In this document: piece by piece, positions 8,122 to 54,916 of the stretch
How the letters are laid out: each line of letters starts with the position of its first letter
Position numbering within the stretch: the stretch's first letter is position 1
Origin: Sphingobacteriaceae bacterium
Lineage (GTDB): Bacteria; Bacteroidota; Bacteroidia; Sphingobacteriales; Sphingobacteriaceae
Length of the DNA stretch: 64,000 nt
NCBI GenBank assembly: GCA_947479815.1
Contig: CANKAT010000001.1
Location: 1-64,000 of the forward strand
Direction of reading: 5' to 3'
Program-made: the position numbers and the translations under genes
Notes under the pieces: model-generated
Told to the model about the DNA's origin: nothing
What the model saw: only the letters and a program-made list of their open reading frames with translations
Database searches by the model: none

Positions 8122-11100
8122 ATGGCAACAGAATCATCTAATAATTCAGAATTAAGTTTACAGGAGCAACTATTTACTGCTATCCAGAACAAATATCCTG
8201 ATGCAGAAGCGAAAAAAATCAATAAAGATAATTTCTTAGATATCTATATCCCTTCCATTAGTGCTGGCAGAGGAACTCATCTATTTTTTAACACCGTAAA
8301 AGGAGCGATAAAAATCGGTTATTATACTAGAGATGAAAGTTTCATCAATAAGGTTGTTTCTATTGCATCAAAATCTATAGAGGGGGCTAGTAATGGCTTA
8401 AGAATTACTGGCAATCCTAAATTTGATGATGTAAAAGATGCATTAAGTGCAGCTTTTGACTTTTTATCCGATATGACTAATGATAGTCCAGTCAGCACAA
8501 TTATTGAAGATAAAAAATCTATTGAGATAGAATCAATTGAAGATGTTGCAACAAAATTTCGTGATAGTTATTTGGATGAAGAAGAGCTTGCCGAGTCTAT
8601 TTCCTCATATCTAGACGATTTTAGTGAAAAAGGAAAGATAGTAGTGCTTCAAATAGAAGAAGAAGACTTGATAAAATCAACAAAGAATCATGACCTATTA
8701 TCAGGTGATTTATTCACATTGATTGGAATTGTAGGCATGAATTCATGGCAGCATTTGTCAAAACTAATTGGGAAAGAAGAATCAGACTGGGTAAATAATG
8801 AATTTGAAGATGAGGATCCAGAAGGCATTGTGCTCTTGTATTGTGATGGAAAATATGTTTATTCATTTTCTAATCCGAAAGAAGAGGTTTCAACTGAAGA
8901 CTCTGCTGACGATGATGATGAAGGCGATTTAGATGATATCTTACGCGAAATGGGATATGGTGATGATGAAGAGAATGAGACGGTTACACTAAATAAATTA
9001 ATGATTCCGCAGATTCTAGAAGAAATAAAGTCGGATAAAAAAATAACCCAAATCGATATCAGTTATTACACGAAAGAATATTCTGATTTGACGTATACGC
9101 TGAGCTTCAAGGTGCAAAAAATCGATATCGAAGTATCTCGTGTTAATTGGTTTAATGATTCTTATTGGTCAGGAAAAATCGAAAGAAAAGAGTTAATAGA
9201 AGGCTTAAAAAACTTTTTGAAAACAGAAGATTCGGCTGAATTAATTGAGAGCTATTTCCATCCAGATATAGTTGATTATGAATTTAGTGGGGCCGGGAAG
9301 TTAGAAAATGGATTAGATTATCAACTAGATACTGTGCCGGACGAATTAACAGATATCCCGGAAGATTTACAAGATGAGGATGGAGATTTGGATGTAATAG
9401 CCTTGACTAATAATCTGTTACCTGTAAAAGAAAGGCTTTCAGATTCTAATATAGGTAAAATACATAGTTATCAAATTTCATTAAATGGTACGGTTTATGA
9501 GTTAGAAGTTGAAGAATTGGGCGAAGAGTACTCTGATGAAGATGATGATGAAGAAGAATTGGATTACGAGGTAGAAGATGATGAGACTGAGGATGAGGAT
9601 GAAGGGGATGACGATGAAACAGACGATGACGATGAAACAGAAGATGACGATGAAACAGAAGATAATGAAGAGGAGGATGCCGAATCGATTACCAATAAAT
9701 ACCCAGTCAACGATTACAGTGATTTAGAAAAGCTAAAAAAAATCATTAAAGAAGATGTAGACCAAATTCGATTTGCTGATAATTCATTATTGAAAATAGA
9801 ATCGAATTTAAAGGCCTTGATTTTAGTTAATGTAGACATATTTCCGCTCTTACCCGAAAATTGTACTGCCTCTAAAAGTATCAGACATTTTGCGGTTGAA
9901 AATGGATATTATGACTCAGAATTTTTAGAAGATATTGACTTGAATGATACAACTATTTTATATAAAATCATCAATAATAATTCTAACTATTACACAGATT
10001 TACCTGATCAATATAAAGATAGAGAACTAACAAAAATTGCAATCAAGAATCAAGCAGCTGATATTACTTTTGATGATTTACCTGCTAGTTTGCAAACTGA
10101 TTCTACCTTTTTTAAGGAGCTGTTAACGTACCTAAACGAAAACTTAACCTATGAACCTATTTCAGGGTATTCTTATTGTGATACCTTATTAGACGGATTT
10201 AAGAAATCTTTTACTGACGATGCTGATTTTATAATTAAGAATCGCTTATTTGAATATGCGAGCAAACGGTTAACTCAGGATAAGGAATTCAATTTAAACT
10301 TTCTAAAAGCAAATCCAGAGTGGTATGATAGACTAATTGAACACAATGATTCGCTAAAGAATGATGAAGCCTTCGCTAGGCTGGCTGTTCAATTAAGTGG
10401 AGTTAATTTTTTAGAACTTACTGAGGAATTTAGTAATAACCGTGAAATTTTAAACTTAGCCGTTGAAAATTCAAAGGGGAGTTTAATGATAAACCAAATT
10501 TCTGAAGACCTGCTTTATGATGATGATGGAAATGTTGATGTAGATTTACTCTTAAAACTGGTCAAGTCTAATCACTTTAATATCAGCAAAGTTCCTGATG
10601 CAATTATGCTAAATAGCGCAGTTGCATCTCAACTTATTTTAGCTGCCAGTTCCAAGAATAATGTATTATACTATGCTCCTGAATTCCTAAGAACAGATAA
10701 AGAGTTCATCACTAAATTAACTAGTGAAAATATTTTTACCATTGCATTTGCTGATAAATCGATATTAGCAGATCGGGAGTTTATGCAGGGCATTGTTGCA
10801 AAGATGCCTGTGTTAATTAAGTTCTGTTCTGCGGAGTTAAAAGCTGATAAACTTTTTGTAAAAGAGGCTGTCAATTTAAACGGTTTAGTTATTCGTTATA
10901 TTGATGAAAAGTTATTAACTGATCCAGAAATTTACTGGGCCGCGCTGCGTCAAAATCCAGAATCATATAAAATTCTACCTTCAGAAATATACACTGATAA
11001 AGCAATTTTAGATTATATTTCCAAAATCAATGGGGGTATTTTAACCGCATTTAGCACATCACTTCATCACAAACTAATTAAATTTAATTGTATTTTAAAT

Positions 11101-13527
11101 TCAGCTGATGGCTCATATCCTGAAGAATTAACAGTTTTTAAGACCTTAGGAGATAAGCCAAGTAAGAATGAAATTTTGGAAGTGATTAAAATTGATCCTA
11201 CCCAGATTGTATTCCTATCCGAAGAGTTCTTTGTGAATAACAAAGATTTATTAGGATCAATTTTAGAAATTACTTCTTATCCACTGAAATTTAAATCTTG
11301 TAGAAAGGCATTAGGTGAGCAAGAGCTTAAAAAACAATTAAAAACTCACTCTTGGGCTTTAAAATACATTGAAGCAGATGAATCATTATCCAATGAATTC
11401 TTAAAAGAATTATTGTCAATTAATGGAAATCTTCTTCAGTTCCTAACGCAGGAGCAAAGAAAAGATAATTCTTTTGTTGAAATTGCCTTAAAACGCAATC
11501 CTGAAGCTTGTCATTTTGTAGCTGAAGAATTCGATTGGAAAACGCAGGAAGCTAAGGCTATTGCCAAACAAATACTATCAGTTGACCCACTTTTATTTAC
11601 TTATTTTATAGAGAAAGATCCAGCTCCAATTGATGAATTTTTTGACCATGCCTATTTTCTTGATTCGTATGTTTTAGAGCTGATGGACCATTCTTACTTC
11701 GAAGAAGAATGGTATTTCATTTCCGATTCAAATGGATCATACCCACTAATAGAAGACCAATTGATCAGTGGATTAAATCAGAATCATAAGGTTTACTATT
11801 ATGACCCTATTAGTAATACAAGCAAAAATGTTTGCTTAGCCATTGAGAGTGGATTAAATTTTACTTGGGATGAATTATTTACAAATTGGGAATATAATTT
11901 ACAAATAATAGAAAAAGCGTTCGAGTATTTCCCAGACGAGGAAACGTATGAAGCCTTAAAGAAAAAATTGGGTAAAAAATTCAATGAGAACGACTATGTT
12001 AATGCTAAAGTAATAGCTAGGGGATCAGAATTATATCCTCTTATTTCTGAAGGTTTAAAGCAAAACCATGATCTAGCACATGCCTATCTAAAATCGGAGG
12101 GGATGGCCGATCAATTATCTAAATTTGAATGCCTACCAAATTCATTCAAAAAAGACAATAATTTTTTACAAAGTCTTTTAGGCTTGAAAATTGATTTTGA
12201 ATTTGAAATATTAGACGGATTTTTTGACCCTAGCATTCTGTATACTGAATCATTTTTAATTCCTTACCTGAAATTAAATTTTGATCAGTATCCTAATTTG
12301 CCAGAAAAGCTACAAAAAAACAGAAGTCTGGCACTTCAATATGGTATAAATAACAATGAAACGTCTTATTGGGGATTAACAGACCTAGCTTTGCCAGTAG
12401 AAATAAGTCAAGATAAAGAGCTTATTTTAGAAATTGCAAAAGGAAATAAGTCTAGAAATATAAAATTTGATGATGCTTTACTCAATGATTCTGATTTCCT
12501 ATTAAAATTAATTGAGTTTCAACCACAATTAGTGCAATCGCTGGAGGAAGATAATCGCAATCTAACTTCATTAATGAAGTTATTACAAAAGAACATTGAT
12601 ATATTTGATCATCTGGAATTAGAAGAGAAGTTTATACCTGAAATCTTTAATTTCATGGTTGCTCATGATCCTACAAAAATACGGAATATAACTTGGTCTT
12701 ACACTTTAAGTGATTCATTAGTCGAGATCACAAAAAAGTTAAACATACTTAACTATGTTAATTTATTTGAAGACACCGATTTTGGCGATACCCTGTCAAC
12801 TCACTATACTATTGAAAGTTTACTATTAAATAAGCAAGTCGACAGCAGCAAAAACAAAGTAGGAACTCAATTCTATTTTGATGAGCCGGGTACCATTACT
12901 CTTGGATATGATAGAAATTGTTACTTGAGTGAGGATGTTGCGGGTGAAATTTCTGATGAGATAATGCTTGAATTTTTAGAGAGTGATGATAGTTGGTCAG
13001 ATTATATCTATGGTAATTCTTGGTATGACTGTAGTGATATTTTTCATACCTATGGCATGGGTGAGCCCGCCACTGATATGCAATTGCCTAATGGAAAAAT
13101 TTTACCTATAGCTTTAAACTATGAACGACCTGAAATAGATAATCTTTTAGAATGCTTTAATATGTCAAGCAAAGGTAGTTTTGTACACATCGCTGTTTCA
13201 GATGAAAAAGCCTATGGTTGGGGCCAATGGAAAAGTTATACTTTAGAAGTTAAGCCTGGTATATTTGATATTGATAATATATCGGTAGAGATTGAGTCAG
13301 GTATTGTTTCTTCATATTCGTATAATTATCCTAATGGTGACGATGACCAATTTGAAGAAAATGAAGATTACAACACCACCGGCCAAGGATTTACCTCCAC
13401 CTTATATTTTAACAATGGTAAGCAGATGATTGATGTTGATGATATCAAAGATTTGCTAGAAGAAAACGAAATTGAGACTACGGATATGGAAGCAATTAAA
13501 GAATTTTTATTGCAGCATTATGATTGA
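8122..13527 (+). CDS. giant acidic repeat protein, DUF4116-like repeats
   Basis: 1801 aa uninterrupted; recurrent motif of the type 'yaPEfLRtDKEFitkl...n...I.faDKSILaDReFm..iv..mP.LikF' resembling DUF4116; central Asp/Glu-rich tract. Confidence 0.7.
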   Translation: MATESSNNSELSLQEQLFTAIQNKYPDAEAKKINKDNFLDIYIPSISAGRGTHLFFNTVKGAIKIGYYTRDESFINKVVSIASKSIEGASNGLRITGNPKFDDVKDALSAAFDFLSDMTNDSPVSTIIEDKKSIEIESIEDVATKFRDSYLDEEELAESISSYLDDFSEKGKIVVLQIEEEDLIKSTKNHDLLSGDLFTLIGIVGMNSWQHLSKLIGKEESDWVNNEFEDEDPEGIVLLYCDGKYVYSFSNPKEEVSTEDSADDDDEGDLDDILREMGYGDDEENETVTLNKLMIPQILEEIKSDKKITQIDISYYTKEYSDLTYTLSFKVQKIDIEVSRVNWFNDSYWSGKIERKELIEGLKNFLKTEDSAELIESYFHPDIVDYEFSGAGKLENGLDYQLDTVPDELTDIPEDLQDEDGDLDVIALTNNLLPVKERLSDSNIGKIHSYQISLNGTVYELEVEELGEEYSDEDDDEEELDYEVEDDETEDEDEGDDDETDDDDETEDDDETEDNEEEDAESITNKYPVNDYSDLEKLKKIIKEDVDQIRFADNSLLKIESNLKALILVNVDIFPLLPENCTASKSIRHFAVENGYYDSEFLEDIDLNDTTILYKIINNNSNYYTDLPDQYKDRELTKIAIKNQAADITFDDLPASLQTDSTFFKELLTYLNENLTYEPISGYSYCDTLLDGFKKSFTDDADFIIKNRLFEYASKRLTQDKEFNLNFLKANPEWYDRLIEHNDSLKNDEAFARLAVQLSGVNFLELTEEFSNNREILNLAVENSKGSLMINQISEDLLYDDDGNVDVDLLLKLVKSNHFNISKVPDAIMLNSAVASQLILAASSKNNVLYYAPEFLRTDKEFITKLTSENIFTIAFADKSILADREFMQGIVAKMPVLIKFCSAELKADKLFVKEAVNLNGLVIRYIDEKLLTDPEIYWAALRQNPESYKILPSEIYTDKAILDYISKINGGILTAFSTSLHHKLIKFNCILNSADGSYPEELTVFKTLGDKPSKNEILEVIKIDPTQIVFLSEEFFVNNKDLLGSILEITSYPLKFKSCRKALGEQELKKQLKTHSWALKYIEADESLSNEFLKELLSINGNLLQFLTQEQRKDNSFVEIALKRNPEACHFVAEEFDWKTQEAKAIAKQILSVDPLLFTYFIEKDPAPIDEFFDHAYFLDSYVLELMDHSYFEEEWYFISDSNGSYPLIEDQLISGLNQNHKVYYYDPISNTSKNVCLAIESGLNFTWDELFTNWEYNLQIIEKAFEYFPDEETYEALKKKLGKKFNENDYVNAKVIARGSELYPLISEGLKQNHDLAHAYLKSEGMADQLSKFECLPNSFKKDNNFLQSLLGLKIDFEFEILDGFFDPSILYTESFLIPYLKLNFDQYPNLPEKLQKNRSLALQYGINNNETSYWGLTDLALPVEISQDKELILEIAKGNKSRNIKFDDALLNDSDFLLKLIEFQPQLVQSLEEDNRNLTSLMKLLQKNIDIFDHLELEEKFIPEIFNFMVAHDPTKIRNITWSYTLSDSLVEITKKLNILNYVNLFEDTDFGDTLSTHYTIESLLLNKQVDSSKNKVGTQFYFDEPGTITLGYDRNCYLSEDVAGEISDEIMLEFLESDDSWSDYIYGNSWYDCSDIFHTYGMGEPATDMQLPNGKILPIALNYERPEIDNLLECFNMSSKGSFVHIAVSDEKAYGWGQWKSYTLEVKPGIFDIDNISVEIESGIVSSYSYNYPNGDDDQFEENEDYNTTGQGFTSTLYFNNGKQMIDVDDIKDLLEENEIETTDMEAIKEFLLQHYD
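9607..9660 (+). repeat. 18-bp in-frame tandem repeat (3 copies)
   Basis: gatgacgatgaaacaga[c/a] x3 encoding DDDET[D/E]. Confidence 0.9.
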
Positions 13528-19571: not shown

Positions 19572-20228
19572 TTACTTATCCTGCTCTTCTGAAAATCTGA
19601 AATTCTTTTTCATCGATTTAAGGTGATGATCATTCACTTGCTTTTTCAGATTTTCCAGATTGAAGTTTTGATTGGTGCCACAATCTAGCATATTGAAATA
19701 AATAGAAGGTTTAAGGCTCTCTAAATATTCGGGGATATTGCTACTCCAAATCAGTTGGCAATTACCTTTAATCTTTGGAACTAGTTGAGATAGTCCATCT
19801 TTAAAAACAATCTCTCTGACATGGCTTGACTCCAGATTACCTTGAGGATAAAAAAGCAATAAATTACCCGGAACCGACAATATTTCTGCGGCATAGTCCA
19901 GACTTTCATTGACAGAACGGCCATAAGGCGCAATAGAGAATGCACCAAAATACCTAGACCATTTGTTCTTTTGTATTTGCTTTTTTAGGCTCATAATATA
20001 AGTGCATTTTACGGTATCCTCTTTATAAATTGCATGTAAACCCAAATAACTGGCAAGTACCGTATCCCAGAAACTAAAATGATTGCACATTAATAAATAA
20101 GAATGACCGGGTTTAATATCTATTGGATAGATGACCATTTTATTGAAGCGTCTCCTAACTAATTTTGTAAGGAGCATAAAACTCCATAAGAGCAATTTTT
20201 GGGGAAGTGGTTTGGCCTTGATAATCAT
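19572..20228 (-). CDS. lysophospholipid/1-acylglycerol-3-phosphate acyltransferase-like (PlsC family)
   Basis: HX4D motif in 'MCNHFSFWDTVLASY'; 'FYPQGNLESSH'. Confidence 0.8.
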   Translation of the reverse strand: MIIKAKPLPQKLLLWSFMLLTKLVRRRFNKMVIYPIDIKPGHSYLLMCNHFSFWDTVLASYLGLHAIYKEDTVKCTYIMSLKKQIQKNKWSRYFGAFSIAPYGRSVNESLDYAAEILSVPGNLLLFYPQGNLESSHVREIVFKDGLSQLVPKIKGNCQLIWSSNIPEYLESLKPSIYFNMLDCGTNQNFNLENLKKQVNDHHLKSMKKNFRFSEEQDK

Positions 20229-21046
20229 GCTAATATCGCTGATAGGGTATCTGCAAAATTCTTGTTGATCAACTCATGGTTTTCATCTAAAACGATCACC
20301 TCTGCTGATTTTAATTTTGGTATTAAGTAGTTACCTATTTTCTGTGGATACATTTTATCTCGTTTACCAAATACAAATATGCTTTTTACCTGATGCTGCA
20401 GCAGACCTTGCTCTAGCCTGACAAAATCTGTATCCAGAAAACGAAGATAGGTAAGTGAGGCATAAAAATTAAATCTGAGCTCCCGGGTACCAATCTCTTT
20501 CAGTAAAATTTCATGACTTTTTGAATCGATAAGCCTCAGTTTCCTGTAAAAATCAAGAAAATGAAGTATGGCTTTATCGCTAAGGGCCAGCTGTTCAAGA
20601 ATCTTATTGCCAAGCTTATTGGTGCTAAAAAAACGGACCAACACTCCCGGATTCAATGCTGACGGAGCGGCAACGATATACTCATCGATCCGTTGAGCAA
20701 GTTGCTCTGCAATAGCAGTTGCATAGTGAGTACCCATTGAATATCCAATCACAGAAAATTGCCCAATATTTTCATAAGCACAGAACTGTATGAAAAGTTC
20801 AGCCAGCTCCTTCTTGCTGATGCCACGTTTGATGTGTTTAAGGCTTTGATCAACCAGCTTCGTTTCCTTATGAAAGAAAAGATCAAACCCGTAAAAAGTA
20901 TATTTTGCACCTAACTTATCTTCCAGTATCCTGAATTGCTTTCCGTGCATACCATAGCCATGAAAACATAACATCGCATTTGGGCCAGTACCATATTTAT
21001 AGTAATGGAGCTTTACGAGTGAATTCTCAAAATAATGATTCGTCAT
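20225..21046 (-). CDS. alpha/beta hydrolase
   Basis: 'AMLCFHGYGMHGKQF' oxyanion region and 'VIGYSMGTHYA' nucleophile elbow (GXSXG). Confidence 0.85.
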   Translation of the reverse strand: MTNHYFENSLVKLHYYKYGTGPNAMLCFHGYGMHGKQFRILEDKLGAKYTFYGFDLFFHKETKLVDQSLKHIKRGISKKELAELFIQFCAYENIGQFSVIGYSMGTHYATAIAEQLAQRIDEYIVAAPSALNPGVLVRFFSTNKLGNKILEQLALSDKAILHFLDFYRKLRLIDSKSHEILLKEIGTRELRFNFYASLTYLRFLDTDFVRLEQGLLQHQVKSIFVFGKRDKMYPQKIGNYLIPKLKSAEVIVLDENHELINKNFADTLSAILA

Positions 21047-21451
21047 TTATTTAACAGGCATTAAAAGTGCAATAGCCCATGCATATTCGCCATCATGGGA
21101 AATAGATAAACTAATACTATAATTCTTTTGTTGCCCATGGATGGTTGCTGTTGGCTTGCCGGCAATCTTTTCCCGGGTTATTTCAATCTTTTTCCATGAG
21201 ATGGCAGCAGCGTCAAATTGCTTCAAAGCTTTGTAAACGGCTTCTTTTGCTGCCCATGTTGAGGCATATCGAATTATAGAGTCGTCAAAAAGCTCACAAT
21301 AAGCTAATTCCTTTGCTGTATAAACCTTTCTTTTGAATTCTTCTGTCAGTGACTCCTCAAAATCAGGGATAAAAACAAGATCATTCCCCACAAAAGTTTG
21401 CCCTTGTATGATTAAATCATCCGGAATATTCAATAGTTCATTCTTCATCAT
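21047..21451 (-). CDS. 4'-phosphopantetheinyl transferase, AcpS-like
   Basis: 'VGNDLVFIPDFEESL' and 'TWAAKEAVYKAL' motifs; probable start at 21451/21448 rather than the ORF-track start 21568. Confidence 0.8.
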   Translation of the reverse strand: MMKNELLNIPDDLIIQGQTFVGNDLVFIPDFEESLTEEFKRKVYTAKELAYCELFDDSIIRYASTWAAKEAVYKALKQFDAAAISWKKIEITREKIAGKPTATIHGQQKNYSISLSISHDGEYAWAIALLMPVK

Positions 21452-22250
21452 TTGGCACTCCCATGATATTGAATCCGCCATCAACAAAATGAAGGTTACC
21501 GGTAACTTTTGTAGAAAGGTCAGAAAAGTAATAAAGTGCTGCATTCCCAACATCGCCTGCGCTAACATTACCCAGCGGAGCGGCCAGCTTGCCTAGCTTT
21601 CTTAACCTGCGTATACCACTTACAGCTCCAGATGAGGTAGTCATGATCAATCCAGCTGATAGTGCATTTACACGTATATTCTGCCCCCTGAAATAGTCGG
21701 CAAGATAAAGTACTATATTTTCTAATGCTGCTTTATTGATTCCCATGCCGGCATAACCTGAAAAAACGCGTTGGGATGCATTATAAGTAAGTGTTAAGAT
21801 AGAGGCGTTCTTAGCCAATAGCTCTTTGGCAGATCGGCAAATTCGGATTAATGAATAAGCACTAATGTTAAAAGAGTCCACCAGATCTTCAAATGGAATG
21901 TCGAGATACGAAGGTGCAGGCTCAGTGCTTCCCGGAAGGCTGTAGCACAATACCTTCTGATTACCATAGGCCACCCCATGTAAAATATAGTTTATTGGCC
22001 CCATTCCCTGGTATACCTTACTAAGAAACTGATCTATTTGCTCTGAGCTCCTTACATCTACCTGAGATGCATAATTACTATCCATTCCATTCTTAACCAT
22101 CAGGGCCAGAACCTCATCTTTTGTGTCTTCCACATAGCTCAATGCTACTTTACACCCCGACAAGTGGAGCTTCAGGGCTATATCCCAGGCTATAGAGCTA
22201 TCATTTCTGACTCCAAATACCACCGCAACTTTGTTTTTATTATTAATCAT
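21438..22250 (-). CDS. enoyl-ACP reductase-like SDR (FabI family)
   Basis: 'VAVVFGVRNDSSIAWDIALKLHLSGCKVALSY' and 'LTYNASQRVFSGYAGMGINKAALE' match the FabI cofactor and Tyr/Lys catalytic regions. Confidence 0.85.
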   Translation of the reverse strand: MINNKNKVAVVFGVRNDSSIAWDIALKLHLSGCKVALSYVEDTKDEVLALMVKNGMDSNYASQVDVRSSEQIDQFLSKVYQGMGPINYILHGVAYGNQKVLCYSLPGSTEPAPSYLDIPFEDLVDSFNISAYSLIRICRSAKELLAKNASILTLTYNASQRVFSGYAGMGINKAALENIVLYLADYFRGQNIRVNALSAGLIMTTSSGAVSGIRRLRKLGKLAAPLGNVSAGDVGNAALYYFSDLSTKVTGNLHFVDGGFNIMGVPNDEE

Positions 22251-23599
22251 TAATAATCGTTTGATATGGACATTGCACTATTCGTACCTCCGAAACCATA
22301 ATTAAGGCAAGTAATATGATTAATCTCTTTGGCAAAAGCCTGCTGAGGGATCAAGTCCCGGTAAGCTTCAAGGGGTTTCATGGGTCCATTCCAGTTTGGG
22401 CCCGTTTGAAAGTTCTCCAATTCAGGATTCAGGTTTGTAGAATTCAGGCAAGGAAGAACCATCTGATTTTCAAGCATCAGAATGGAAGAAATTAACTCAA
22501 CAGCCCCTGCAGCGCCAAGCATATGTCCAAACTGTGATTTAGGAGCACTTACATGGTAACCCGTTTCACCTAAAGTATCTACAACACTTAACAGTTCGAT
22601 CGAATCGCCGGTAGGTGTTGAAGTTCCATGAACCTTTACAACATCAGGCCTATGACCCGTTTCCTGGAGCAAGCCTTTCCATAGCCGCTGTTGTCCGGCA
22701 AAAGATGGATAGAACATATCTCCGTCGCCATCAGAATTATTAAAATAGGTATCGATAACAGCCAAGATCTTTGCACCTCTAGACTTGGCCATTTCATATT
22801 CTTCAAGGGCAACAATGCCACCACCGAATGAGCAGACAAAGCCATTTCTGTTTTTATCAAAGGGGCGTGAGCTTTCTTGCGGGCTAAATCCTCTGCTCAG
22901 CACTTGCATGGCATCGAATCCAATAAATGTTTCCAGGGCAGTTCCTTCTACTCCACCTGCAATTGCACGATCCTGAAGACCATACTTAATCAGGCGATAA
23001 GCATGTCCAATATTCCCTAAGCCGGTTGCACAGGCAGAACCTATAGATTCAGAAACCCCTTTATTTTTGATCAAGCAAGATACATTGGCAGCTTCACGAA
23101 AAATCATGGTACGATCTACTGTATGCCCTCCTCCTTGCCTTGATTTAGCACCTAGCTCAAAGAACGTATGCCACGCATTTCTAAGAATTATGTTTCCAGC
23201 ACTTCCGGAGCTTATCACAACGGCTGTTTGCTCAGATTCGGTCTCAGCTGTGGTCCAGTTTGCCATTTTAATGGCATCCAGGGTATTCAACATGGCCCAG
23301 ATACTGCCAATGTCTGCTGTTGCAAGATTCCCATCGGGGATCCTGCTTAATTTATCGATATAGGTATCAGGATAATTTTGAAAGATGGTTGACCAAACAA
23401 CTTCTAAGCCTGCTTCCTCTTCTGTAATATAGCCAGAAACAGTAGATCTGACTTTCTTTCCATGGGAAAGAGCTTGATCCCATTCTCTGATCAGACTTTG
23501 ATTACTGAATAGTTTTTGGTTGAAGTCGGCAAGATCTGTACAGTTCGGAAAAATTCCTCCCATACCCACTATTGCCACTTTTCTTCCTTTCAACTGCAT
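22250..23599 (-). CDS. beta-ketoacyl-ACP synthase (FabF/KAS II-like)
   Basis: Cys-His-His triad contexts: 'SIGSACATG', 'VHGTSTPTGD', 'KSQFGHMLGAAG'. Confidence 0.9.
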   Translation of the reverse strand: MQLKGRKVAIVGMGGIFPNCTDLADFNQKLFSNQSLIREWDQALSHGKKVRSTVSGYITEEEAGLEVVWSTIFQNYPDTYIDKLSRIPDGNLATADIGSIWAMLNTLDAIKMANWTTAETESEQTAVVISSGSAGNIILRNAWHTFFELGAKSRQGGGHTVDRTMIFREAANVSCLIKNKGVSESIGSACATGLGNIGHAYRLIKYGLQDRAIAGGVEGTALETFIGFDAMQVLSRGFSPQESSRPFDKNRNGFVCSFGGGIVALEEYEMAKSRGAKILAVIDTYFNNSDGDGDMFYPSFAGQQRLWKGLLQETGHRPDVVKVHGTSTPTGDSIELLSVVDTLGETGYHVSAPKSQFGHMLGAAGAVELISSILMLENQMVLPCLNSTNLNPELENFQTGPNWNGPMKPLEAYRDLIPQQAFAKEINHITCLNYGFGGTNSAMSISNDY

Positions 23600-23601
23600 G
23601 A

Positions 23602-23862
23602 TCAGCCTTTTTCCTGCGTTTTAATGATCAGATTCACAGTATCCCTTACTTTAGAGCCTAAATCATCAATATCATCGTCATCAAACTCTAAATTGAATTT
23701 TTGCTCAATTTTTGCAACAATATTGATCATTTCTGTAGATGGTGTTTTCAAATCTGCAATAAAGTCTGTTTCTTCAGTCACAGAATTCAACTTTTCTTGA
23801 TTTACTGTTCTTACAGTTCTTAATATCTCAACTAAACCATCAATAATCTCTTGTCTTTCCAT
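23602..23862 (-). CDS. acyl carrier protein
   Basis: 86 aa, phosphopantetheine-site-like 'FIADLKTPSTEMINIVAKIEQKFNLEFDDDDI'; the DSL motif appears as 'TPSTEM'. Confidence 0.8.
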   Translation of the reverse strand: MERQEIIDGLVEILRTVRTVNQEKLNSVTEETDFIADLKTPSTEMINIVAKIEQKFNLEFDDDDIDDLGSKVRDTVNLIIKTQEKG

Positions 23863-24434
23863 TAAATTTTAATTTGATTCAATCGTTCTTTTTTTATTCC
23901 TCTTCCCGTAATATCGAATAATTCAGCTACCAGTGTAAAATCTGTGCTAAGATCGTATTCCATTAGCTGCTTTTCGGTGAAATGAAGAAAATATTCATCT
24001 AAATCAAGGCCCTTGGCAACTTTATAAATTCTCCCATCAGAAACCATTTGCCGGAACTTACAAAACTTGATGTAACCAATATTAATAAAGGTATCTCCTT
24101 CCTCCAAATAATTGTGAAAAATTACTTGTCCGATACTGATGAACCGAGGGAAAAATTTTGCGCCTAATTCTAAGGGCTCAAGGCCTTCTTTCTTGCACTC
24201 CAGAAAGCCATTGCACGATCCAGCTATTGCCTGTGCGCAGGATTCTATTTGATCTACCCCTCTGAAAAGACCAAAATGATCTACCACATCCCTACTTTTT
24301 GGAGTATAGCTCGCTACAATACCAATATTAGGAGAATGCCAATGGTATTTATCGAGCAACAATTTTGTAGGGCCATGATGTATCATCAAATCCTTGGGGT
24401 GAACACCAGTAAGATTTTCCTTATCCAATATCAT
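23862..24434 (-). CDS. hotdog-fold 3-hydroxyacyl-ACP dehydratase-like protein
   Basis: 'VVDHFGLFRGVDQIESCAQAIAGSCNGF' aligns with the FabZ/FabA His...Glu active-site region. Confidence 0.7.
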   Translation of the reverse strand: MILDKENLTGVHPKDLMIHHGPTKLLLDKYHWHSPNIGIVASYTPKSRDVVDHFGLFRGVDQIESCAQAIAGSCNGFLECKKEGLEPLELGAKFFPRFISIGQVIFHNYLEEGDTFINIGYIKFCKFRQMVSDGRIYKVAKGLDLDEYFLHFTEKQLMEYDLSTDFTLVAELFDITGRGIKKERLNQIKI

Positions 24435-25168
24435 CGCATACCCCCATTAATTTGAATATTGGTGCTATTTATATAGGATGCCTTATCTGAAAGGAGAAAG
24501 GAAATAGCTTCAGCAATATCCTCTGCTTTACCGAACCGCTTGGAGGGTATCTTTTGCAAATACTTATCCTTTTCTGCCTGCGGGATGGCATCGGTCATGT
24601 CTGTTTCAATATAGCCTGGAGATACACTCAATACCCTGATCTGATGCTCCTGATTTAAAGCTGCAGCCTCTTGTGCCAATGATTTAGACAAAGCAACTAA
24701 ACCGGCTTTAGTGGCTGCATAAACCGACTGAAAGTCATTTCCTGTCTCACCAACGCATGAACTAATATTGATAATTACTCCGCATTTACTAAGTGTGAAA
24801 ATTTTCATGGCAGTTTTACAAATCATGATAGGAGCCTTCAGGTTCACATTCAGCATCCTGTCAATTTCATGCTCTGGCTGAAAGATCAGCGATTTATCTA
24901 AGGTAATTCCTGCATTATTGATTACCCCATAGAGCGAATCTCCATGCTCCTTCTTAAGCTTTTTGCAAAAATCAGATAGCTGAACCGGATCAGAAAAGTC
25001 GGCATATAACGCATAATTCCCTTCTCCAATTGATTTAATATTACCTTCTTTAGAAGCATGAAGAATGAGCGTATATTCTTCAGAAAGTTTTTTGGAAATC
25101 GCTAAACCTAAACCTCTCCCAGCGCCTGTTATTAATATCTTTCTCTTCTGCTTAGCTATACTACTCAA
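24431..25168 (-). CDS. 3-oxoacyl-ACP reductase-like SDR (FabG family)
   Basis: 'KILITGAGRGLGLAISKKL', 'NNAGITLDKSL', 'YAATKAGLVALSKSLA', 'INGGMR'. Confidence 0.9.
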   Translation of the reverse strand: MSSIAKQKRKILITGAGRGLGLAISKKLSEEYTLILHASKEGNIKSIGEGNYALYADFSDPVQLSDFCKKLKKEHGDSLYGVINNAGITLDKSLIFQPEHEIDRMLNVNLKAPIMICKTAMKIFTLSKCGVIINISSCVGETGNDFQSVYAATKAGLVALSKSLAQEAAALNQEHQIRVLSVSPGYIETDMTDAIPQAEKDKYLQKIPSKRFGKAEDIAEAISFLLSDKASYINSTNIQINGGMR

Positions 25169-25429
25169 AACTATCTAGGTTAACGTGTATTAACAAATTT
25201 GCGCATAATTATAATAATAGGCAATATATAATACAAATCAGAACCTTTATAATACGGAGAATACCAATTTGAAGATATGAAAAGCTTGAGTGATCCCTTA
25301 AAAAATCTGAGTGATAGAGTTATGGATTAGGCTTTGAACATTAATTGAGAAAAAAGGCGTTACGGAATTGAAAATTAAATTAAATTACAATTGAAATTGT
25401 TCACCTATAATTTTATTCAAAATCATCTA

Positions 25430-26812
25430 ATGAAGCATTTTTTATCTTCAATACTCCTTTTTTCTCTTCTCATTTTATCCAAGCCCGCAAGTGCAGGTAA
25501 AAATAATGAGGGCGAAACCTGGAAAGCCGGCGTTGCCAGTGTGATCATCACACCAGTAGAATCTATATGGATGGCCGGATTTGCCCATCGCACAAGTCCG
25601 GCAAGCGGAAAACTTCATGACCTTTGGGTAAAAGCCTTAGCCATTGAAGATGCTTCTGGAAAACAGGCAGTACTCCTCACATCCGATCTTTCGGGCATTC
25701 CAAAGAGTATTTCTGACTCTATCAGGAACCGAATAGAAAGAAAATTTAAATTATCAAGAAGTCAGATCATTTTCAATACCTCGCATACGCATTCTGGTCC
25801 GGTATTGGTTGATGCACTTTGGGATTTATACCCGCTTGATTCTGAACAAAAATCAAGAATAACAAGCTATACCAAAGCGTTGGAAATAAAGATTGAATCT
25901 GTGGTCAGGAAAGCACTGGCTTCCATGAAACCGGTAGATATCTCTTCACAAAATGGTATCACCCGATTTGCGGTTAACAGACGCAATAATATTGAAAGCG
26001 CAATAACTGCTCAAACTGATTTAAAAGGCCCTAGCGATTATGCCGTGCCGGTTATCAAGCTGAGCGACAAAAAAGGAAAGATTATTGCTTTAGTATTTGG
26101 ATATGCTTGCCACAATACTGTTCTTCATGGATATGAATGGTCGGGCGATTATGCCGGTTATGCACAGATTGCGCTAGAAAAAGCACACCCCGGTGCCACA
26201 GCGATGTTTTTTCAGGGCTGTGGTGGTAACCAAAATGCATTACCCAGAAAATCTGTCCCACTGGCAACACAATATGGAAAGGAACTTGCCCTTGCGGTAG
26301 ATGCTGTGTTGGAAGCAGACATGAACCTTCTTGAACCCAAATTGAGCACTGCCTATTCAGAGGTTAAGCTTGAGCTAGAAAAGGCACCAAGCAAAGAAGA
26401 ACTTTTGGCCATCGCTGCCAAAGAAACTAGTTACATCAAGAACTGGGCACTGAACATGATCAAAAAAACGGATAAGGGCGAAACCTTCATTAGCACATAC
26501 CCCTATCCTGTTCAGTTTTGGCAACTTGGGAATCAGTCGGTGGTAGCCCTGGGAGGTGAGCCGGTTGTGGATTATGCCCTCAACTTAAAAAAGATTTTTG
26601 GCCCTGATTTATTTGTCATGGGATACTCGAACGATGTAATGGCTTATATTCCAACGGCAGAAATAATACGTGAAGGCGGCTATGAAGGTCATACTTCACA
26701 AATGGCCTTTGGAATGCCTGCAAAATGGAAGGAGTCCATTGAACCATTAATCATGAATGAAGTAATGACTTTAGCCAAAAAGCTCAGGATAGTAATTCCT
26801 GAATCAAAATGA
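25430..26812 (+). CDS. neutral/alkaline non-lysosomal ceramidase-like protein
   Basis: 'WKAGVASVIITPVESIWMAGFAHR', 'FNTSHTHSGPVLV', 'GYACHNTVLHGYEWSGDYAG', 'FFQGCGGNQNALPR'. Confidence 0.85.
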   Translation: MKHFLSSILLFSLLILSKPASAGKNNEGETWKAGVASVIITPVESIWMAGFAHRTSPASGKLHDLWVKALAIEDASGKQAVLLTSDLSGIPKSISDSIRNRIERKFKLSRSQIIFNTSHTHSGPVLVDALWDLYPLDSEQKSRITSYTKALEIKIESVVRKALASMKPVDISSQNGITRFAVNRRNNIESAITAQTDLKGPSDYAVPVIKLSDKKGKIIALVFGYACHNTVLHGYEWSGDYAGYAQIALEKAHPGATAMFFQGCGGNQNALPRKSVPLATQYGKELALAVDAVLEADMNLLEPKLSTAYSEVKLELEKAPSKEELLAIAAKETSYIKNWALNMIKKTDKGETFISTYPYPVQFWQLGNQSVVALGGEPVVDYALNLKKIFGPDLFVMGYSNDVMAYIPTAEIIREGGYEGHTSQMAFGMPAKWKESIEPLIMNEVMTLAKKLRIVIPESK

Positions 26813-26873: not shown

Positions 26874-27371
26874 ATGAAACGAAGAGAAATACTTAAAGGC
26901 CTAACCATTTTGCCTTTAGCAGGAGTTGCAGTAAATGCCATTGCTAATCAGGCACTTACGGAAGGAACAAAAGCTGAAAATTCGACAGCTGATGAATGGC
27001 TACCAAAGAAAGAACTCATTAAAACTCCCGCTGGATCCTGCCTTCGCTCAGGGCACTTGATATTTATCGGAGGTATTGGAGGCTGGTACGCCAACCAGAG
27101 AGCTGAACCTGGAGATATTAAAGTCCAGATTAGAAGTGTTCTAACCACCATGAAAGGAATTCTAGAAGGCGCCGGTTCTTCCATGTCAAACGTCCTGAAA
27201 ATTCAGATGACCGTGGCCGAACCCAACAAAAATATCCCAGCATTGAATGAAGCTTACAGTGAATTCTTTCCCGAAAATCCGCCTGTACGTTCTTATAGCG
27301 GATCCAAAACAAGCCAAATGGGTAGAGATGGCATCCTCTGCCAGGTTAGTTGTATTGCCTACGTAGATTAA
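26874..27371 (+). CDS. RidA family protein with Tat-like signal
   Basis: N-terminus 'MKRREILKGLTILPLAGVAVNA'; body 'LRSGHLIFIGGIGGW...GDIKVQIRSVLTTMKGILEGAGSSMSNVLKIQMTVAE' matches YjgF/YER057c/UK114. Confidence 0.85.
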   Translation: MKRREILKGLTILPLAGVAVNAIANQALTEGTKAENSTADEWLPKKELIKTPAGSCLRSGHLIFIGGIGGWYANQRAEPGDIKVQIRSVLTTMKGILEGAGSSMSNVLKIQMTVAEPNKNIPALNEAYSEFFPENPPVRSYSGSKTSQMGRDGILCQVSCIAYVD

Positions 27372-27412
27372 AAACGAACCTTAATTTTAATAAGAACCTA
27401 GAAATATATCAT

Positions 27413-27970
27413 ATGAATCGTAGAAATGTATTAAAAAGTCTTTCACTCCTTCCATTGGCAGGAGCAGCTGCAGCAATCCCAAATGAAGCTAATGCTCAAA
27501 AAAAATCTAAAAAAGATCCATGGACGCCTAAAAAACAAGTGATCCGCAAAAGTAATAGTGGTGGTAACACCAATCCCACAGTTGCAGCTCCTGCAAACGG
27601 AACAAAACCTGCTGCACCTGCAGCAATTCTCTCAGGATGTATCCGCTCAGGCCACCTGCTGTTTGTATCTGGAATTGGAGGTTGGTATGCCGAAAGAAGG
27701 GCTGAACCAGGAGATATTAAAGTGCAGATTCAAAGCGCCTTAACAACCATGAAAGAGGTATTGGAAGATGCAGGCTCATCGATGGCCAATGTATTAAAAG
27801 TACATATGACCGTTGCCGAACCCAACAAAAATATTGCATTACTGAATGAAGGTTACCGCGGATTTTTTCCTGACCCTCCGCCGGTACGTTCTTATACTGG
27901 CTGCGGCGTCGATCAAATGGGACGCGATGGTATTCTGGTACAGGTAGATTGTATTGCTTACGTAGATTAA
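27413..27970 (+). CDS. RidA family protein with Tat-like signal (paralogue)
   Basis: 'MNRRNVLKSLSLLPLAGAAAAIPNEANAQ'; body very similar to the preceding gene. Confidence 0.85.
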   Translation: MNRRNVLKSLSLLPLAGAAAAIPNEANAQKKSKKDPWTPKKQVIRKSNSGGNTNPTVAAPANGTKPAAPAAILSGCIRSGHLLFVSGIGGWYAERRAEPGDIKVQIQSALTTMKEVLEDAGSSMANVLKVHMTVAEPNKNIALLNEGYRGFFPDPPPVRSYTGCGVDQMGRDGILVQVDCIAYVD

Positions 27971-39684: not shown

Positions 39685-40971
39685 TTAAGTCAAATCCCAT
39701 TCCTTCCGCTTTTCTACTGACAATAAGCTGTTTGCTTCGCGATCTCCTTTAAATTTCTCTCTATTCTCGCTCCATTCAAGCTTTCTACCCACTTTATAGG
39801 AGATAAGTCCTAACTGCATTGGCAGTGTAAGTTTGCGAGCATATTCCAAATTAGATTCTGGTTGTGTACGTGATTTAACTGCATTCACAAAATTCTGCTG
39901 ATGACCTGGCGAACGCTCAACGGTGATCGGAACTTTAGTTAAATCAAGTATTAGCTCTCCGCCTATTCTAACCTCATGCGTATTATAATCACAAATCAAC
40001 GTACCTTTTTCACCCTCAAAATAAGCGCCGATATTACTACGGCTGGCCGCTCCAGGTACATTAGGTGCCTGACTGGTCCAGAAAATATTTAAATTTTCGT
40101 ATTCATAGTCCACATCAATCCAACGCTGAACATTAGAAATTCCTGTATTTTGTTCACCTCTGGCATTGATGCTTTTCAATCCTTGAGGTTGTAGAGCCCA
40201 AAAAGCTACGTCGGCAATATGCGACCAGAAATCGCCAAAAACACCGCCGCCATAATCAGAGAAATAGCGCCAATTAAAATGACAGCGCTGTGGATCATAC
40301 TCCGATAATGGAGCTGGGCCAAGCCACATATCCCAATCCAGATTCTTTGGAGCCGGCTGATATGCTGCCGGACCAAAATCAGGAGGAAAACCAGATTTCC
40401 ATAAGCGAACCGTATGAACTTTACCCAAAATACCAGAACGAACCAACTCCACAACGCGATGATAATTATCACCCGCATGAATCTGGGTACCCAATTGAAA
40501 AACCCTATCGTACCGATTTAGATTCTTAAGCATCTCCTGCCCTCCCCGAACATCATGAGATAACGGTTTTTCACAATAAACATCTTTACCAGCCTTAAAC
40601 GCAAGAGTAGCAACTTGACTATGCCAATGGTCTGGTGTAGCACAGCTTATCGCATCAATATCCTTGCGATCAAGTATATGCCTGAAATCTTTGTAAGCCT
40701 GTGCTTTATGCCCGGGACGAAGCGTGTCCAGAGTTTTCATCGTGGAATCTAGATGAAGCTGATCCACGTCGCATAAGGCTACTATTTCAACTTCCGGAAT
40801 TGCTGCAAACCATTTCATATGCGCATTACCCATTCCACCAAGACCAATATGGGCAACTCGTAAGCGATCACTTGCAGCTACCTTGCGCAGCATGTCAGGA
40901 AACATTAACATTCCCATCCCGGCAATGCTAGTTTTCTTGATAAATTCCCTTCGGTTTGAATTCAATTTCAT
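39685..40971 (-). CDS. Gfo/Idh/MocA family oxidoreductase with Tat signal
   Basis: 'NRREFIKKTSIAGMGMLMFPDML'; 'RVAHIGLGGMGNAHMKWFAAIPEVEIVALCDVD', 'DVYCEKPLSHDVRGG'. Confidence 0.9.
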   Translation of the reverse strand: MKLNSNRREFIKKTSIAGMGMLMFPDMLRKVAASDRLRVAHIGLGGMGNAHMKWFAAIPEVEIVALCDVDQLHLDSTMKTLDTLRPGHKAQAYKDFRHILDRKDIDAISCATPDHWHSQVATLAFKAGKDVYCEKPLSHDVRGGQEMLKNLNRYDRVFQLGTQIHAGDNYHRVVELVRSGILGKVHTVRLWKSGFPPDFGPAAYQPAPKNLDWDMWLGPAPLSEYDPQRCHFNWRYFSDYGGGVFGDFWSHIADVAFWALQPQGLKSINARGEQNTGISNVQRWIDVDYEYENLNIFWTSQAPNVPGAASRSNIGAYFEGEKGTLICDYNTHEVRIGGELILDLTKVPITVERSPGHQQNFVNAVKSRTQPESNLEYARKLTLPMQLGLISYKVGRKLEWSENREKFKGDREANSLLSVEKRKEWDLT

Positions 40972-40981
40972 ATAGATTTAG

Positions 40982-41011
40982 ATATGAGATATGAGATGTG
41001 AGATGTGAGAA
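40982..41011. repeat. short tandem repeat (TGAGATA/G)
   Basis: gatatgagatatgagatgtgagatgtgaga between two divergent-spaced minus-strand genes. Confidence 0.7.
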
Positions 41012-41060
41012 AGGCTCTTGGTCAAACACTCATTCCAAATAACATATTAACTAATTATAC

Positions 41061-42431
41061 CTATTTCGTACTTAAATCCTTGATTCTAATATTTCTAAAA
41101 AGCAATTCAGAACCATGTCCCAGAAAACCGATATGTCCACTATCACGCAATAATCCGGGATGAGCTTTACCGTCGGCAGCACCATTTTTCCTGGCATCTG
41201 TAATATCCCCATCAAGAATCACGGTACCATTTAAAATAACTTTGATCTTTGGTCCCTGCACGATCACTTCCTGATAATTCCATTCACCAACAGGCTTCAG
41301 CGAGCCTCTTTTTGCAGGAATTGTACCATAAACAGATCCATGGTACTGATAAACATGAAGATCCTTATACACAGGAGCATCATTATCTAATATTTGTAAT
41401 TCCATACCTTCATAAGCTGCATCACCGGTTATAGGTGACCTGATACCCAGACCATTATTAGCACCCGGAGTCAATTGAAATTCAAAACGGAAAACAAAGT
41501 CGCTGAATTCTTCTTTGGTAAATAAATTATTGCCAAGAGTACTTTTTCCAGGCTTAGGGCGAACGGCCAAATTGCCATTTTCGGTGATGTAATCTCTGGT
41601 ATTCCCCCTCCAGTTGTACATATTAGTTCCATCAAAAAGCACTTTAAACCCTTCTTTCTGTTCCTTTTTACTCAGCTCAAATGATTTTGCACGTGGCAAT
41701 TCCTTGATGTAAATATTACGATAAGAAACCGGTGAGCCATGTGCCTGCAACTCAATCTGTTCTTCAGCAAATATTGGCAGGTTCTTGTCCCAGTAATTTT
41801 CCAGGATCACATTATCAGTAACCAGCTCACCATTCAAATAAACAGTCACGCGATCAGCTTTCATAATGATCCGGAACGTATTCCATTCATCCAATTTCTT
41901 ATCAGCCACTTTTAATGGCTTACTTTCATTGACCTGATTATTGTATAATCCGCCTGAACCTACCTGTGCTCCTGATTTTACACGGGCATTATCCCAAATC
42001 TGCACCTGTGGTGTTCCTCTTAGATAAATACCAGCATCACCCTCCTGCTTTCCATTGTCAATGATCTTCCAGTCAACCATCATCTCAAAATCGCCATATT
42101 TCTTAACTGTAGTAATATTATTTCCATGCCCAGTAAATTGAAGCTCGCCATTGACCACTTTCCAGCTGTCACGCATTTCTGCGTCAGCTTTTACCTGTTC
42201 TGCTGCCAAAGTTTTAGCATCCATTTTAGACCTTTTAATTGGGTCAGCAACCAGGCCTTTCCAGCCTGTAAGATCTTTACCATTGAATAAGGCGGTAAAG
42301 CCATTCATTTGAGGGTTCTCAATAGTCTGCCCAACAGCGTTTGTTGATAGAGGATTCTCTGCCAATGCAAAAATTGCAGGAAGAACTAATGCAGCCAGAA
42401 GAAATAGACGAATTTTTTTTGGAGAAAACAT
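41061..42431 (-). CDS. DUF1080 (3-keto-disaccharide hydrolase) protein with two DUF1080 domains
   Basis: 'GFTALFNGKDLTGWKGL...FEMMVDWKI...GNAGIYLRGTPQVQIWD' and second module 'GFKVLFDGTNMYNWRGNT...FRFEFQLTPGANNGLGIRSP...GMELQILD'. Confidence 0.88.
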   Translation of the reverse strand: MFSPKKIRLFLLAALVLPAIFALAENPLSTNAVGQTIENPQMNGFTALFNGKDLTGWKGLVADPIKRSKMDAKTLAAEQVKADAEMRDSWKVVNGELQFTGHGNNITTVKKYGDFEMMVDWKIIDNGKQEGDAGIYLRGTPQVQIWDNARVKSGAQVGSGGLYNNQVNESKPLKVADKKLDEWNTFRIIMKADRVTVYLNGELVTDNVILENYWDKNLPIFAEEQIELQAHGSPVSYRNIYIKELPRAKSFELSKKEQKEGFKVLFDGTNMYNWRGNTRDYITENGNLAVRPKPGKSTLGNNLFTKEEFSDFVFRFEFQLTPGANNGLGIRSPITGDAAYEGMELQILDNDAPVYKDLHVYQYHGSVYGTIPAKRGSLKPVGEWNYQEVIVQGPKIKVILNGTVILDGDITDARKNGAADGKAHPGLLRDSGHIGFLGHGSELLFRNIRIKDLSTK

Positions 42432-42518
42432 ATTTTCCTTTTTTAAGATTAATTTATAGAATTGAATTTAGCTTTTATATCGTGAAATTAAAATCTGATT
42501 CGATTGATTTATAAAATA

Positions 42519-43343
42519 TTAGTTTGCAGTAAGAGGTAGGATCTCAACTTTCCGGACAAACATTTCTGCTCCTTCAGACTGAATCTGAATTTTTCCTTTG
42601 GTGGGGCTTACATGATAAGCATCATTCACCAGAACTCCATTTAAATAAGCTGAAACTTTATCGCCTATAACCACACACTCTACTTTATTCCATTGACCGA
42701 CTGGTTTTTCAACATCATTCTTACCTCTGAACCCAAGAACATCCTTCCATTCAGGGTCTCTGGCAAACCAATCGATACGGCCACCATTTATCGTAAGCGG
42801 CTGCCCGCTTGCCAAATATACATTCCCTTTACCCTGCTGCTTAGGGGCCACATTGCTAGTTAAAGAAAACTTTTTGCTTCCATCACCCACAACCAGAAAA
42901 TCACCGGTCCCGCCCTCAATAATCTGACATTCAATAGAATACATCCATGTTCCAGAATAACCGCCATCTACACCAGTTGAATGTAAAAGGATACCACCAT
43001 CTCTTGCTCTATCAACTCGTGGTGCAAATGTTTTAGCGCCCCATTTAAATTCAACAGTTAGTTTATAATTACTATACTCCTCATTTGAGGTGATACATCC
43101 ATATTCCTCTCCTGAGATATGGATCAGTCCCTTATCCACGCTGAATACATTCTTTGGGTCAATATCGCGTCCGCGACCTTTAACAAATTTGTACCACCCA
43201 TCCAGATTCTGACCATTGAAGAGCGCAATAGATTTTGTGTTGCTGAGAGTTGAAGAACTTGATTTTGATTTAGTGGTGCCACATCCACCAAAGATGAATG
43301 ATACCGAAACAAGGGCTAGGGCGAATAGAAATACTTTTTTCAT
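42519..43343 (-). CDS. DUF1080 (3-keto-disaccharide hydrolase) lipoprotein
   Basis: Lipobox 'FIFGGCGTT'; 'IALFNGQNLDGWYKFVKGRG', 'DGGILLHSTGVDGGYSGTWMYSIECQIIEGG'. Confidence 0.87.
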   Translation of the reverse strand: MKKVFLFALALVSVSFIFGGCGTTKSKSSSSTLSNTKSIALFNGQNLDGWYKFVKGRGRDIDPKNVFSVDKGLIHISGEEYGCITSNEEYSNYKLTVEFKWGAKTFAPRVDRARDGGILLHSTGVDGGYSGTWMYSIECQIIEGGTGDFLVVGDGSKKFSLTSNVAPKQQGKGNVYLASGQPLTINGGRIDWFARDPEWKDVLGFRGKNDVEKPVGQWNKVECVVIGDKVSAYLNGVLVNDAYHVSPTKGKIQIQSEGAEMFVRKVEILPLTAN

Positions 43344-43368
43344 GTTAAAATCGATAAATGTTAATTGA

Positions 43369-46300: not shown

Positions 46301-46521
46301 AACCTGCCATCAGCATCAAAAGAGGCAAACATGGGATAAGAGATCATACCGGGATCAACAGCCCGTTCAATGGTAAATCCTTCGGGAACTTGGAGCCCGT
46401 CGAGTTCAGGAACAGCAGTTTCTTTTTCTTTATTGCCAAGGAAAAACAAGACACTGGCAGAAAGAACTAATACTGTTGCAAGCTGAAAAGGTGATTTAAA
46501 GATTTTTGTAAAATAGCTCAT
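43369..46521 (-). CDS. PVC-type heme-binding CxxCH protein (beta-propeller dehydrogenase-like + HEAT repeats + cytochrome c)
   Basis: 'PEGFTIERAVDPGMISYPMFASFDADGRLFVFES', HEAT-like 'AATALGQIGDKRAVPALLKA', heme motif 'GVCSSCHAVAGKGAIFGPDLTNIG'. Confidence 0.9.
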   Translation of the reverse strand: MSYFTKIFKSPFQLATVLVLSASVLFFLGNKEKETAVPELDGLQVPEGFTIERAVDPGMISYPMFASFDADGRLFVFESDGSSPTNQGMLKNPPYHVRLLEDTDGDGKFDKSKIFADSLSFPKGGVFYNGSLYVTSSPDLLRLTDTDGDGVADKREVVLTGWVLNSNGALLGGPFLGPDGWLYMTDARRGFDITTKEGVNLKGNTARIWRCRPDGSGLESMAGGGFDNSIELAFMPSGETVGTMTYFIDPQAGMRDAIMHWVEGGTYPKNNPVIEKDKFILTGDLMPVMNKMARVAPSGIMRYRGNTMGNEYQGSLFSAEFNTGRIMRHKVIADGATYKTTDEPFVTSNVKDMHLTDVLEDADGSMLVVNTGGWFILGCPLSRVAKLDVPGGIYRIRKTGAAKVNDPWGTKLNLKSMAVPALVAATKDPRMAVRDHAIELLISKGEAAVLPIKSSLLKSASEEMRAAGIFALSRIATPNAMIGVRSGLIDPSGLVKTSAARALGLAKDKLSVNKLMELVQKDRFAVRRQAATALGQIGDKRAVPALLKASVINNDRFEEHALIYALIKLNDANLLQAALNNPSANVKRTALIALDQIGGTALNKENVSPFLTSKNSQLLKIGIWVASHHPDWSDIVIDFLKGRLNALEIAGTDITAIRDLMITFSNDKQLQAFLADQLGSNSPSDTKKAFLLDVMAHASVNTIPQVWVQALGKLLDSGSTEIKSQVLGLIESRRIKALNGQLSQIVQNVNTSPDFRLKALSSKLLSVPVLSDTEFSMAFSFLGNKNESPIRQMSARLLSNAKLTDDQLIKLAEEQVAKTDVYLLPNLISAFKNNKNEQVGSALVAALSASPDRLDNVSEEELKGLLNAYSQKIKSSADPLLAKLAEKNAGRLAELTKLEASLTRGDVASGAKIFFGKGVCSSCHAVAGKGAIFGPDLTNIGQIRSGHDILEAILYPSASFAREYETSRITTKTATYTGVLKEQLPDAILIATGPGLQVRIPRSEITAIEPLSISMMPPGLDKQLSPVELSDLMAYLNTLPDGLGNLVKRK

Positions 46522-46565
46522 TTGTTTATTATAAATTTTAAAATGGTAATCTGTTTAATTTGAAA

Positions 46566-48182: not shown

Positions 48183-48261
48183 TCTTATTGGAACTCAAGA
48201 TCATAATTGATAACACCTATTGGTATGCCTTTTTAACTAATTGAATGAGTGTTTAAATGAT

Positions 48262-49800: not shown

Positions 49801-49934
49801 TCACTCAGGTTAACAGCAGGTTTAGTATTTAATATAGTGTATTTGGCTTTGAAAAAAGGGGGCAATTATTTATTAAAATCCTCTTTAGACTATAAAATTC
49901 ATGCCCTTTTGAAATCATAGCCTTTAACTAGTTA

Positions 49935-54908: not shown

Positions 54909-54916
54909 TCACCCTG

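Follow-up and report, generated by a model that had tools for sequence, protein, structure and literature searches.

The described system closest in its logic to the locus reported here is the rhizobial AcpXL cluster for a very-long-chain fatty acid (acpXL-fabZXL-fabF1XL-fabF2XL-lpxXL), whose LpxXL acyltransferase can also act without the AcpXL synthase (PMC5613085). The aryl polyene (ape) cluster of E. coli encodes a lysophospholipid acyltransferase and a thioesterase, and its gene table contains no malonyl transacylase (PMC8253772). In Rhodothermus, the glucose moiety of carotenoids is esterified with fatty acids by CruD-type enzymes (PMC5822342). Here we describe an eight-gene operon on a stretch of 64,000 nucleotides from a Sphingobacteriaceae bacterium (contig CANKAT010000001.1, positions 1 to 64,000), referred to below as the window. 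The operon contains the enzymes of an elongation cycle, its own acyl carrier protein (ACP) and an acyltransferase, and it is separate from the housekeeping set of the same genome. It probably encodes a lineage-specific secondary type II fatty acid synthase (FAS) with an attachment step of its own. A literature search, which did not extend to subscription journals, revealed no published description of this operon. New in this work are the link to a secreted partner protein, the division of the operon into two modules, and the finding of related gene pairs in carotenoid loci together with the exclusion of a CruF-type carotenoid glycoside as the general acceptor.

The operon runs on the minus strand from position 25168 down to 19572. 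It starts with a FabG-like 3-oxoacyl-ACP reductase (24431..25168, probably with a TTG start), followed by a FabZ-like hotdog dehydratase (DH, 23862..24434), the dedicated ACP (23602..23862), a FabF-related beta-ketoacyl-ACP synthase (KAS, 22250..23599), a FabI-like enoyl-ACP reductase (21438..22250), an AcpS-type phosphopantetheinyl transferase (PPTase, 21047..21451), an alpha/beta hydrolase (ABH, 20225..21046) and an acyltransferase of the PlsC or lysophospholipid acyltransferase type (19572..20228). All eight open reading frames listed for this region in an earlier note, which had been made from the sequence alone, were found at their positions. The spacings in operon order are -4, -1, +2, -1, -14, 0 and -4 bp. 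The tight packing with overlaps of 0-4 nt or tiny gaps proposed before thus applies to all junctions except that between FabI and PPTase, where the overlap amounts to 14 nt at the likely start. The longest PPTase reading frame begins at 21568 and would overlap FabI by 131 nt; the conserved part of the protein starts at the ATG-ATG at 21451/21448, which overlaps the FabI stop codon. Upstream, the operon is flanked by a divergent plus-strand gene starting at 25391, and downstream by a convergent gene ending at 19188.

The gene products were scanned against Pfam and NCBIfam models, with the NCBIfam equivalog cut-offs as reference, and the scans agree with the previously proposed identities for seven of the eight. 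FabG reaches 200.7 bits on TIGR01830 (cut-off 297.75) and is 57-78% identical to its counterparts in other Sphingobacteriaceae operons. For the dehydratase, neither Pfam nor NCBIfam gave a family match, and its identity is backed by an AlphaFold model (predicted local distance difference test score, pLDDT, 88.7) that was matched by Foldseek to FabZ (3b7j, E 2.7e-8, TM score 0.80 on the target); H53 and E64, located at the catalytic positions of FabZ, are invariant in 17 members. In the ACP, the canonical DSL motif is replaced by PST, and both P41 and the predicted phosphopantetheine serine S42 are invariant in 13 members. The nearest solved ACP matches are mycobacterial AcpM proteins, a weak hint at a long chain that we do not use as support. 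KAS scores 226 bits on the fabF model (cut-off 494) and, far below this, at most 82 and 64.5 bits on type I polyketide synthase (PKS) and polyunsaturated fatty acid (PUFA) synthase models, respectively. As noted earlier, its Cys-His-His triad is intact, with C190, H324 and H359 invariant in 12 family members, and so is the Tyr/Lys region of the enoyl reductase, which scores up to 189 bits on FabI models and retains the Tyr-x6-Lys motif (YAGMGINK). The assignment of the PPTase to the AcpS type likewise stands, with 46 bits on PF01648 and 60.6 bits on TIGR00556, above the cut-off of 45.35. ABH belongs to PF00561 and its triad S103/D230/H257 is invariant in 12 members. The acyltransferase matches PF01553 with 25 bits, has an invariant NHFSFxD motif, and its AlphaFold2 model (pLDDT 83.0) has PlsC of T. 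maritima as best fold match (5kym, E 8e-5), better than LpxM. No near-identity to a characterized cluster was found, the best match of KAS to a solved protein having a phmmer E-value of 2.3e-46.

In comparison to a close relative with proteins 91-98% identical to those of the window, the ratio of nonsynonymous to synonymous substitution rates (dN/dS) lies between 0.036 and 0.134 across the eight genes, all of which are therefore under purifying selection. The same order and strand of all eight genes is found in 61 of 75 independently found loci on genome contigs, and most of the 14 others are incomplete due to contig ends. The conserved order together with the low dN/dS of every gene argues that this operon is not a chance arrangement. 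Of 298 genomes sampled from the order, 44 have a DH homolog; all of these belong to Sphingobacteriaceae, where they represent 7 of 17 genera, and among 396 genomes sampled across the phylum the DH and KAS profiles matched genomes of their own family only. Carriers belong to Pedobacter, Mucilaginibacter, Daejeonella, Pelobium, Desertivirga and Albibacterium or are metagenome-assembled genomes (MAGs), with Zobellia barbeyronii as an outlier; some are cultured type strains. The operon is thus patchy and nearly confined to Sphingobacteriaceae. Carriage on plasmids was considered and rejected, as no KAS relative above 36% identity occurs among the best plasmid matches. The Zobellia locus (L128) is ordered unrelated-looking hydrolase, FabG (51% identical), FabA-type dehydratase, DH, ACP, KAS, FabI and PPTase and lacks PlsC. 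A PPTase gene adjoins the operon in every locus whose contig extends over this region, except in two eroding MAG loci (L068 and L078); a third MAG locus with missing parts is L074. In L078, from a Sphingobacteriales MAG, FabI, PPTase, ABH and PlsC are absent, and KAS is followed by a gene for an 819-aa methyltransferase-like protein (9605-12064), as judged by reading its sequence.

Among the alternatives, the one that fares best, although we consider it unlikely, is that the operon produces a polyene or partly reduced chain similar to PUFA or aryl polyenes, with FabI acting only during part of the cycles or at the first double bond; the product would be a pigment-like or antioxidant envelope lipid. 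The architecture resembles that of the aryl polyene clusters with their lysophospholipid acyltransferase and thioesterase (PMC8253772), one natural operon (L123) lacks both FabI and the hydrolase, and in Zobellia a FabA-type dehydratase (PF07977; L128:9307-9993) has been added between FabG and DH. However, nearly all operons retain a FabI-like reductase with intact Tyr/Lys, and there is a single KAS and no chain-length factor, aryl starter genes or LolA/RND exporter genes. The model scores point in the same direction, since on other NCBIfam KAS models KAS reaches 152.9 bits (NF006587) and 96.6 bits (NF006618) versus 226 on FabF, and FabG reaches 158.6 bits on FlxB versus a cut-off of 340.

The operon is not the housekeeping FAS. 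The earlier note had named as a possible objection that these genes might be the only fab set of the organism, and this is not the case: an AcpP with canonical DSL motif adjoins FabF on contig C66 of the same genome, while FabI is encoded on C45, FabD on C6 and a PPTase of Sfp size on C23. The reaction set is homologous to that of the housekeeping type II FAS, but KAS is 29% identical to the genome's own FabF and the operon FabI 29% to the housekeeping FabI, the ACP is divergent with its PST motif, and the operon contains neither FabH or a priming ligase nor a malonyl transacylase such as FabD. Because of these two gaps, FabD and the starter would have to be borrowed from primary metabolism, and the description of the extension cycle as self-contained was too strong. 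What holds is the proposal that this FAS-like operon is distinct, encodes the activation of its own carrier and likely includes an acyl-attaching end. The general FAS homology of reductase, dehydratase, KAS and ACP could also be reconciled with a back-up housekeeping FAS, serving for instance as an escape from enoyl reductase inhibitors or in cold growth and yielding ordinary membrane fatty acids. We regard this as improbable in view of the divergent ACP with its own PPTase, the dedicated acyltransferase, the missing FabH and FabD, and the patchy distribution alongside a complete primary set.

The operon consists of two separable modules, a synthase formed by FabG, DH, ACP, KAS, FabI and PPTase, and an attachment end formed by ABH and PlsC. 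ABH is absent from four operons, namely L066, L120 and L124, and L123, which lacks FabI as well; it travels with PlsC and not with the synthase, so that the offloading role suggested for the hydrolase is unproven. Conversely, ABH-PlsC pairs without adjacent synthase genes occur in three genomes (G139, G114 and G120) that are not among the DH-positive ones. The G139 pair lies next to the glycogen synthase gene that also flanks the intact G002 operon, and its ABH groups with that of the G002 operon with a support of 99/95, which argues that the pair is what remained when the synthase was lost; in the corresponding PlsC tree, the housekeeping PlsC was useless as an outgroup for rooting (branch length 7.75). 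Such relic pairs suggest that the attachment pair can use acyl groups from elsewhere, in parallel to LpxXL acting without the AcpXL synthase (PMC5613085).

More distant ABH-PlsC pairs (30-44% identity) are located in carotenoid loci together with CrtD, a CruG-like glycosyltransferase, CruF and CrtW. The genome of the window itself has a carotenoid locus (G000:C31:5641-11121) with CrtD, an acyltransferase, the CruG-like glycosyltransferase, CruF, an IspH-like protein and CrtW. Since the operon PlsC and hydrolase have their nearest wider relatives in such loci, the operon might provide the acyl moiety of a carotenoid glycoside, comparable to the substrates of CruD. Furthermore, in the Mucilaginibacter group 30 genomes have the carotenoid-locus pair, 9 the operon pair and none both (p 1.3e-6 if independent), an apparent mutual exclusion that is confounded by clade structure. 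CruF, however, is no more common in operon-bearing genomes (16 of 28) than overall (106 of 198; Fisher p 0.84). A CruF-type carotenoid glycoside is therefore ruled out as the general acceptor by the 12 of 28 operon-bearing genomes without CruF, five of which are listed as lacking it (G003, G021, G026, G033 and G035) and seven deduced from its absence among the matches, and we consider a carotenoid destination of the chain very doubtful.

The sole conserved neighbor of the operon is a secreted TPR protein, about 495 aa long and here called c8, which is found next to it in 12 of 20 and 51 of 75 loci, usually convergent with PlsC. All 38 of the 298 genomes that encode a c8 at least 50% identical to the query (c8-A) carry the operon. 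Of 30 c8 proteins placed in a tree, 20, all from operon-bearing genomes, form a single branch with 100/100 support; the other side comprises 7 proteins from genomes without the operon and 3 from genomes with it. Linkage is not strict: in the window's genome c8-A is encoded apart from the operon (G000:C12:29027-30511, equivalent to L135:9027-10511), and in G035 PlsC and c8 are adjacent to each other about 45 kb away from the synthase genes. In about ten Mucilaginibacter loci as well as in L136, L138 and L139, c8 is followed by genes for a nonribosomal peptide synthetase (NRPS)-PKS with the order adenylation (A), peptidyl carrier protein (PCP), ketosynthase, acyltransferase (AT), ACP and aminotransferase, then condensation, A, PCP and thioesterase; this locus has its own PPTase and continues with genes for a bacterial sugar transferase and others of the exopolysaccharide type. 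That the operon makes the fatty acyl starter of a lipopeptide assembled by this conserved NRPS-PKS is highly improbable and was rejected, since the association is limited to a subset of Mucilaginibacter, most operons including that of the window have no NRPS nearby, and the NRPS locus loads itself, having an AMP-binding loading domain, an AT and a PPTase of its own, with exopolysaccharide-type genes coming next.

For the secondary type II FAS favored here, we envisage the following route. The PPTase of the operon would convert the PST-type ACP to the holo form, and the proline in place of aspartate before the modified serine plausibly hides this ACP from other pathways. Malonate would be loaded by the housekeeping FabD, and the starter would come from general metabolism. 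KAS, FabG, the FabZ-like DH and the FabI-like reductase would then carry out iterative, largely fully reducing cycles on the ACP, and the finished chain would be kept apart from membrane phospholipid synthesis. The PlsC-type enzyme, assisted or edited by ABH, would transfer the chain onto an envelope lipid or glycolipid, and the acylated lipid would be handled outside the inner membrane with the aid of c8-A. Tentatively, the product might be an undescribed envelope lipid of Sphingobacteriaceae, in which PlsC and hydrolase attach a chain built on a private ACP to an acceptor other than a carotenoid, with handling at the surface by the co-inherited c8-A. Several observations weigh against the route favored here. 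One natural operon (L123/L051) has no FabI, which means that full reduction does not apply throughout, and no dedicated exporter or glycosyltransferase adjoins the operon. Three operon-bearing genomes in the tree carry the other type of c8, and in the lineages of G079, G117 and G249 c8-A occupies the ancestral locus, flanked by NIF3-like and zinc-ribbon-like genes as judged by sequence, where operon-free genomes keep their c8. Shared ancestry may therefore explain part of the co-occurrence of c8 and operon.

If the proposal is correct, common inhabitants of soil and freshwater such as Pedobacter, Mucilaginibacter and Daejeonella should contain a membrane or envelope lipid that has so far gone unseen. 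Natural operons without FabI, natural synthase-less relics and a secreted partner encoded outside the operon offer genetic handles, and the PST-type ACP paired with its own PPTase represents a natural test of carrier-protein separation between pathways.

The window contains further features of interest. Four tandem secreted paralogs that read as neutral ceramidase-like proteins are encoded at 53061-59557, and a fifth relative at 25391-26812 is divergent from the operon. At 26874-27970 lie two adjacent near-duplicate genes that read as RidA-family proteins with signal peptides. A run at 39685-52973 encodes secreted proteins resembling DUF1080-type, HEAT-repeat/c-type cytochrome and Gfo/Idh-type oxidoreductase proteins and may serve in the degradation of sugars or cyclitols. 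An acidic protein of 1801 aa with repeated leucine-rich units is encoded at 8122-13527, within the AT-rich first 13 kb.

When compared with known acyl-chain systems, the operon differs from type II aromatic PKS by the lack of a chain-length factor gene to partner a KS-alpha, a single KAS with intact Cys being present in the operon and its relatives, and from PUFA and other type I synthases by its discrete proteins (64.5 bits on the PfaA model versus a cut-off of 1010). The link to CruD-type carotenoid glycoside acyltransferases is that the acyltransferase of the operon has relatives in the carotenoid loci of the family, but the operon shows no association with CruF and carries a whole synthase. 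With aryl polyene and flexirubin clusters it shares type II FAS-like enzymes, an ACP, a lysophospholipid acyltransferase and a thioesterase (PMC8253772 and PMC3992019). The missing malonyl transacylase, previously taken to set the operon apart from both, does not do so, as the ape cluster lacks one too (PMC8253772) and the flexirubin passages considered here mention none (PMC3992019). The absence of aromatic-precursor genes does hold, with no ammonia lyase or ligase among the operon neighbors and only c8 conserved across 20 loci. Unlike these clusters, the operon has no chain-length factor or several KAS genes and no aryl starter genes, and no Lol/RND export genes were seen among its own neighbors; in addition, it encodes an enoyl reductase of the FabI type as well as a PPTase, and ape has neither. 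The AcpXL cluster belongs to a different phylum, and in contrast to it the operon has one KAS, its own FabG, FabI, PPTase and hydrolase, and an acyltransferase that is PlsC-type by predicted fold and not LpxL-type. Common to both are a dedicated ACP, dehydratase and KAS combined with an acyltransferase, which in rhizobia places a special chain on an envelope lipid and in Sphingobacteriaceae would do likewise.

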